From: Siphonodentalium dalli
Taxonomy: Eukaryota > Mollusca > Scaphopoda > Gadilida > Siphonodentaliidae
Reading direction: 5' to 3'
DNA length: 64,000 nt
Assembly (NCBI GenBank): GCA_032622095.1
Contig: CP136064.1
Coordinates: forward strand, 259,449,863-259,513,862
Below, piece after piece: positions 13,360-13,571 of this stretch; within the stretch, counting starts at the first letter, position 1, and the number at the start of each line of letters is the position of its first letter. Below the pieces are notes generated by a model. The model was given only the letters and a program-made list of their open reading frames with translations. It was not told the origin of the DNA and searched no databases. A program made the position numbers and the translations under genes.

Positions 13360-13571
13360 TGTAACAGAACGAGAGAGAGAAGTGCGGGAGTCGCACCGAA
13401 AGTTGGCAGCACCCGGAATCCCAAGCCGGTCACCCCATCCAAGTACTAACCGGGCTCGACATTGCTTAACTTCGGTGATCACACAAAGCGTCTAACGACC
13501 GTGACCAAGAGATCTAGACCTCTGGATCAGAGAAGTCATCGGCCTTCTATATTTACAACGCGACCGCTACA
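13360..13571 (-). mobile_element. 212-bp LTR containing 5S rRNA-like sequence
   Basis: In minus orientation the LTR starts TGTAGCGGTCGC and ends TTCTGTTACA, with TGTARC inverted tips. It is flanked on the outside by the CTAA duplication and on the inside by the tRNA-Pro primer-binding site. Its middle is a 5S rRNA-like stretch in the same sense as the element. The 23 bp at its inner end recur at 7999-8021. The layout is that of plant Cassandra TRIM elements, whose LTRs hold 5S promoters. Confidence 0.8.
13400..13508 (-). rRNA. 5S rRNA-derived sequence inside the LTR
   Basis: The minus strand reads 'GATCACCGAAGTTAAGCAA' (box A region), then 'CCCGGTTAGTACTTGGATGG' (intermediate element), then 'GTGACCGGC' and 'CCGGGTGCTG' (box C region and 3' stem). 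This order and spacing match animal 5S rRNA. The 5' third is shortened and diverged, and an extra G stands in the GGATGGGGTGACC block. It is unlikely to be a functional ribosomal gene but may keep a pol III internal promoter. No run of four T follows directly as a terminator. Confidence 0.8.

Follow-up and report, generated by a model that had tools for sequence, protein, structure and literature searches.

A short non-coding LTR retroelement family with a partial 5S rRNA sequence in its LTRs in the scaphopod Siphonodentalium dalli

Results

We analysed a 64,000-bp stretch of Siphonodentalium dalli contig CP136064.1, referred to here as the window. A tandem array of 138-bp units occupies positions 7422-7998 and resumes at 13572. 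At its resumption point lies a 212-bp unit with TGT...ACA ends (13360-13571, minus strand), as described in the original prediction. A CTAA target-site duplication had also been assigned to this unit; the duplication is real, but it does not surround the 212 bp, since the left copy (7995-7998) lies 5.6 kb away from the right copy (13572-13575). Directly after the array unit ending ...CTTTACTAA, positions 7999-8021 (minus strand) hold 23 bp that are identical to the end of the 212-bp unit. When the two flanks were joined and one CTAA was removed, 278-280 bases aligned with array units at 96.1-98.6%. The empty-site alignment and the 23-bp end therefore delimit an insertion of 5573 bp at 7999-13571 (minus strand), between the two CTAA copies, with the 212-bp unit as its 5' LTR and the 23 bp as the last part of its 3' LTR. 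The remainder of the 3' LTR was absent from the rest of the window, which contains one complete LTR copy. Further along the window, 24744-30050 is taken up by about 183 copies of a 29-bp satellite with strong GC and AT skew.

The 5' LTR belongs to subfamily A and shows 209 identities, 2 mismatches and 1 gap against the majority sequence of that subfamily. Its 5S-derived part (13407-13480, minus strand) begins at about base 41 of 5S and covers box A, IE and box C, as placed by the 5S box positions that we assume. The three predicted 5S blocks each occur once in the window, as does the primer-binding site TGGGGGCTCGTCCG, and their orientation in the sense of the element was confirmed. The primer-binding site (14 bases; 13345-13358, minus strand) starts one base past the LTR; its presence next to the LTR was borne out, and its tRNA-Pro type is our assumption. 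A TATA-like motif, TAAATATAG, lies at 13547-13555 (minus strand), that is, at LTR bases 17-25 or -35 to -27 from the virtual 5S +1 at LTR base 52. A permissive Rfam search of 13200-13800 (E up to 1) returned a single match, to 5S_rRNA at 13503-13401 on the minus strand (23.4 bits, E 0.02), which falls under the curated cut-off of 38 bits and in which several helix I pairs are non-standard; at the gathering threshold, zero Rfam matches were obtained in the whole window. The 5S part differs by a C>T change in CAA(C/T)G and by an additional G within box C; among 72 other aligned LTRs, this G is shared only by both LTRs of L058 (subfamily C). The 5S sequence of the LTR is a partial one.

After the 14 primer-site bases, the window element departs from the inner sequence of the family. 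It continues with 508 bp of foreign filler (12837-13344, minus strand), which has genome matches on contig C9: three C9 loci align with filler positions 1-238 at 91-92% and again with positions 388-508 at 85-97%, among the matches listed. Between these two parts sits a dispersed repeat of about 170 bp (12952-13121), and 36 of the 43 listed genome matches cover this repeat only (40 of 1719 candidates were scored). The three related loci with filler sequence lie within about 270 kb (C9:127342352-127613281), and the one that was read, L101, contains neither the 5S LTR nor the LINE that follows the filler. The rest of the interior is this broken LINE (8022-12836, plus strand), antisense to the element and recognised by Pfam, the 3' end of which was placed from its absence in L101. 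Reverse transcriptase scored above the Pfam cut-off in two ORF pieces, and GDSL-esterase-like and endonuclease matches were found under the cut-off. A protein search with one LINE piece gave no relative at E<=0.001, and a search with another piece gave 48 relatives.

A simple insertion of the LINE into the 3' LTR was rejected, because the rest of that LTR is missing from the window and the filler holds C9-related sequence. In the window copy, other genomic sequence has taken the place of the interior and of most of the 3' LTR. Judged by its LTR, the copy is a young member of subfamily A, since its 2 mismatches and 1 gap compare with an average of 5.3% mismatches among A copies. That such a young LTR copy encloses diverged sequence points to copying from elsewhere, either while a break was repaired after the insertion or in a chimera that formed earlier.

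The family was then traced in the host genome, where nine contigs (2.2267 Gb) were searched. The 17-mer GGTTAGTACTTGGATGG was found at 281 sites, ordinary 5S genes counted in, and the exact LTR end plus primer site at 145 sites, versus 0 for the reversed control in both cases; a chance origin of either sequence is therefore excluded. A word specific to subfamilies B and C gave 115 exact matches versus 0 in the reversed control. Viral contigs scanned with two LTR patterns and the 5S 17-mer gave 0 matches. The 145 primer-site matches were sampled as 70 loci (L031-L100), some with two matches, among the matches listed; 28 other listed places, including that of the window itself, stood outside this set. 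The 5S LTR was matched in 63 of the 70 loci, in some of them only in part or rearranged, and had no match in the remaining seven (L033, L042, L054, L055, L084, L085 and L089). The 5S sequence is thus far from confined to the window copy. The window does have just one complete copy, and an acquisition of 5S sequence by that copy alone is refuted by these loci elsewhere, many of which have two LTRs.

Both outer ends were recognised in 35 distinct clusters, eight of which come from loci found via the 5S word. Plain two-LTR copies with LTRs of about 212 bp made up 24 of the 35, the two-LTR clusters being 457-584 bp long, and pairing of the LTRs, on which the predicted LTR reading depended, proved to be common. 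A script scored exact 4-bp target-site duplications in 24 clusters, one of 5 bp, one of 3 bp and none in nine. Among these nine, L004 showed a 5-bp duplication once its start was correctly placed, and L061, L072, L076 and L077 could show none because the cluster ends at the inner LTR; in L019, L079, L081 and L097 a duplication was sought and none was seen. L041 and L099 carry three LTRs under one shared duplication. The inner part of normal copies is mostly 98-112 bp long (40 and 77 in two) and runs from the primer site to a purine tract; in several other loci the primer site extends to 18 bases, TGGGGGCTCGTCCG(GGAT). Identity within LTR pairs was 89.1-99.5%, generally higher in subfamilies B and C than in A. 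These results indicate that the 212-bp unit is an LTR belonging to a TRIM (a short LTR retrotransposon that is non-autonomous) without coding capacity. Its normal plan is an LTR of about 212 bp, the primer site, about 100 bp, a purine tract and a second LTR, about 530 bp in total.

Comparison with the host's own 5S genes, which we take to be lophotrochozoan in appearance, gave an exact run of 52 bases between the A majority and L003, starting from ATCACC of 5S and spanning box A, IE and box C; the window LTR shared an exact run of just 18 bases with L003. L003, at 86 bits, is not a perfect 5S gene; with L001, which scores 105 bits and carries a 2-base insertion, the A majority had an exact run of 27 bases. 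Bases 1-40 of 5S were not recognisable upstream of the block, with 8 (window), 13 (L058) and 12 (L047) of 40 matching, which is near chance. Small-RNA genes are linked around host 5S genes: a U6 gene lies within about 1.1 kb of each of L001, L002 and L003, and a U5 gene also accompanies L002 and L003. At L012, L026 and L030 (1468-1576, minus strand in the last), 5S-like units within 5S arrays retain their second half but are altered in the first (33-36 bits).

Conservation was assessed in 72 of the 99 extracted LTRs, namely those from L031-L100 that were 190-240 bp long and non-identical (37 A, 32 B and 3 C). The A and B majorities agreed at 34/34 positions of the LTR start, which includes the TATA-like TAAATATAG, and at 51/52 of the promoter block, versus 33/61 between start and block and 52/65 after the block (Fisher p 1.5e-8 and 0.003). 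This pattern would fit selection on master copies, or a replacement of the middle stretch. Among the LTRs of subfamily A, no sign of constraint was seen in the promoter block, where non-CpG differences were 6.4% versus 3.7-4.4% elsewhere. Counted by LTR, the exact box C word occurred in 7/37 of subfamily A, 16/32 of B and 1/3 of C.

We also counted T-runs, TTTT being the usual pol III stop, in 22 elements (the 24 two-LTR clusters minus L004 and L076). The sense strands held 9 TTTT, where mononucleotide shuffling predicted 47, and 16 of the 22 held none; AAAA in the same elements occurred 22 times versus 13 expected. The first TTTT past the 3' end was 1-1202 bp off, and within 83 bp in 11 of 22 elements. 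Because the copies are related, this count is supporting rather than independent evidence.

In subfamilies B and C, the stretch ahead of the 5S block reads TTGGTCCAGTGGTTAAGACGCC, within which TGGTCCAGTGG fits what we take to be the tRNA box A consensus. Past the block, GGTGCGACTCCC is one base off box B as we assume it, with GGTGCGACTCC as the box-B-like motif. The subfamily A LTR lacks the box A fit, and Rfam searches of one B LTR and one C LTR gave no tRNA match with E allowed up to 10.

One of the primer-site loci without a 5S LTR match, L033, has an LTR-like end, CTGTTACAC, as in the TRIM, together with the 18-base primer site, and shares about 27 bp with the TRIM. Its gag-like ORF has a Pfam match under the cut-off (E 0.0061, 17.2 bits; cut-off 24.1), and a protein search with it returned no relatives. 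In the next 3 kb there is no stop-free stretch longer than 179 aa, and the longest one carries no retrotransposon domain. These observations fall short of proving L033 to be an autonomous partner. An LTR shared between the TRIM and other primer-site elements was rejected: matches of 16-29 bp are centred around the LTR end and primer site, and beyond these the elements gave a few 12-16-bp matches to the 5S LTR, with E near 1.

Discussion

We consider it likely that the family is a TRIM whose LTR captured a 5S internal promoter, that is transcribed by pol III, and that is moved by an autonomous LTR retrotransposon. The 5S block of the LTR is a probable pol III type 1 promoter, predicted from its retained boxes. 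TFIIIA and pol III would recognise box A, IE and box C of the 5' LTR, and transcription would begin close to LTR base 52, some 30 bp past the TATA-like motif. Pol III may then read through the sense strand, which is measurably poor in T-runs, and stop at a T-run beyond the element. An autonomous LTR retrotransposon, probably a Ty3/Gypsy-like one, would provide packaging and reverse transcription of the RNA, the latter from the primer sites found here, with tRNA-Pro as the putative primer. Integration with 4-bp duplications, as seen in the genomic copies, would complete the cycle.

The best-placed alternative, which we nevertheless regard as rather unlikely, is a TRIM with a pol II-transcribed LTR in which the 5S block is the passenger of an old SINE3 or 5S insertion. 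The LTR start common to the A and B majorities contains the TATA-like motif, which pol II could use just as well, and the block is not conserved in excess within subfamily A. Ajax and Cassandra are themselves believed to derive from SINE3 insertions (PMC10886601). Against this alternative, the kept block covers the promoter and agrees at all but one of its positions between the subfamilies, versus little more than half of the neighbouring stretch, and T-runs are depleted on the sense strand.

A more elaborate version of the pol III reading, which appears doubtful, is a hybrid promoter in which tRNA-like A and B boxes (type 2) would flank the 5S type 1 region, with the TATA-like motif upstream. 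It would have arisen independently of Ajax and Cassandra, through fusion of pieces of 5S- and tRNA-type SINEs, and would be moved by Gypsy machinery that makes 4-bp duplications and is primed by tRNA-Pro.

That the element spreads functional 5S RNA genes is highly improbable: box A, IE and box C are intact in the A majority, but bases 1-40 of 5S cannot be recognised, and the Rfam alignments of three LTRs leave much of helix I unpaired. A 5S-headed SINE (SINE3) or 5S pseudogene, to which the partial 5S sequence might have pointed, is refuted by the TGT...ACA direct repeats, primer site, purine tract and 4-bp duplications, and by the position of the 5S sequence inside the repeat instead of at its head.

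The TRIM with a captured 5S promoter, the reading that we favour, can be set beside several known systems. SINE3 shares the 5S-derived promoter, and differs in having no LTRs or primer site and a LINE-type tail. Cassandra, which uses a tRNA-Met primer, likewise carries 5S in both LTRs of a TRIM and forms multi-LTR tandem copies; the predicted Cassandra-like plan holds. Its tandem arrays have been reported (PMC7215508), its hosts are plants and its length is 565-860 bp (PMC10886601), versus 457-584 bp in the present family.

In animals, the same source describes Ajax, a 5S TRIM found in two nemerteans, Notospermus geniculatus and Lineus longissimus, which makes 5-bp duplications, is primed by tRNA-Leu and measures 421-434 bp; the term TRIMp3 is proposed there (Kojima 2024, PMC10886601). 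The family reported here is therefore not the first animal 5S TRIM, Ajax having been published in 2024. A literature search at the level of the titles and abstract openings listed found no animal 5S TRIM other than Ajax. Ajax and our family both have a short LTR pair, only the promoter part of 5S (box A, IE and box C) within the LTR, a primer site and no coding sequence, and our family falls within the broad definition. It is set apart from Ajax in its duplications (4 bp in 24 of 35 clusters, 5 bp in two), in its length, and in its primer site TGGGGGCTCGTCCG(GGAT), which we take to be of the tRNA-Pro type. Because primer and duplication length differ, the driving machinery is suggested to differ from that of Ajax.

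Helenus of animals, notably bivalves, is a proposed pol III-type TRIM with 4-bp duplications that Kojima links to Gypsy, and tRNA-Pro is among its primers in bivalves (PMC10886601). Our family resembles it, on that description, in the 4-bp duplications and the tRNA-Pro-type primer site. It differs in that the Helenus LTR contains tRNA-like sequence, whereas the LTR here contains 5S sequence, with the box-A-like stretch of subfamilies B and C at motif level only. If the origin of the family was independent, it would represent a further LTR retroelement that adopted a 5S internal promoter, after Cassandra and Ajax. Repeated convergence then becomes testable, in the form of whether a TRIM needs the 5S block when the LTR of its helper cannot be shared.

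A second repeat family, with the end ...GGCGGTTACA and the same tRNA-Pro-type primer site, was observed at L042, L054, L055, L084 and L085, sometimes as inverted copies. At about 1439-1521 of L054, the primer site is extended to a complement of about 36 nt, which we presume to be tRNA-Pro-like; next to it lies an inverted copy of the same sequence that ends in CCCCCA. This extension looks like a tRNA primer that was copied past 18 nt and retained.
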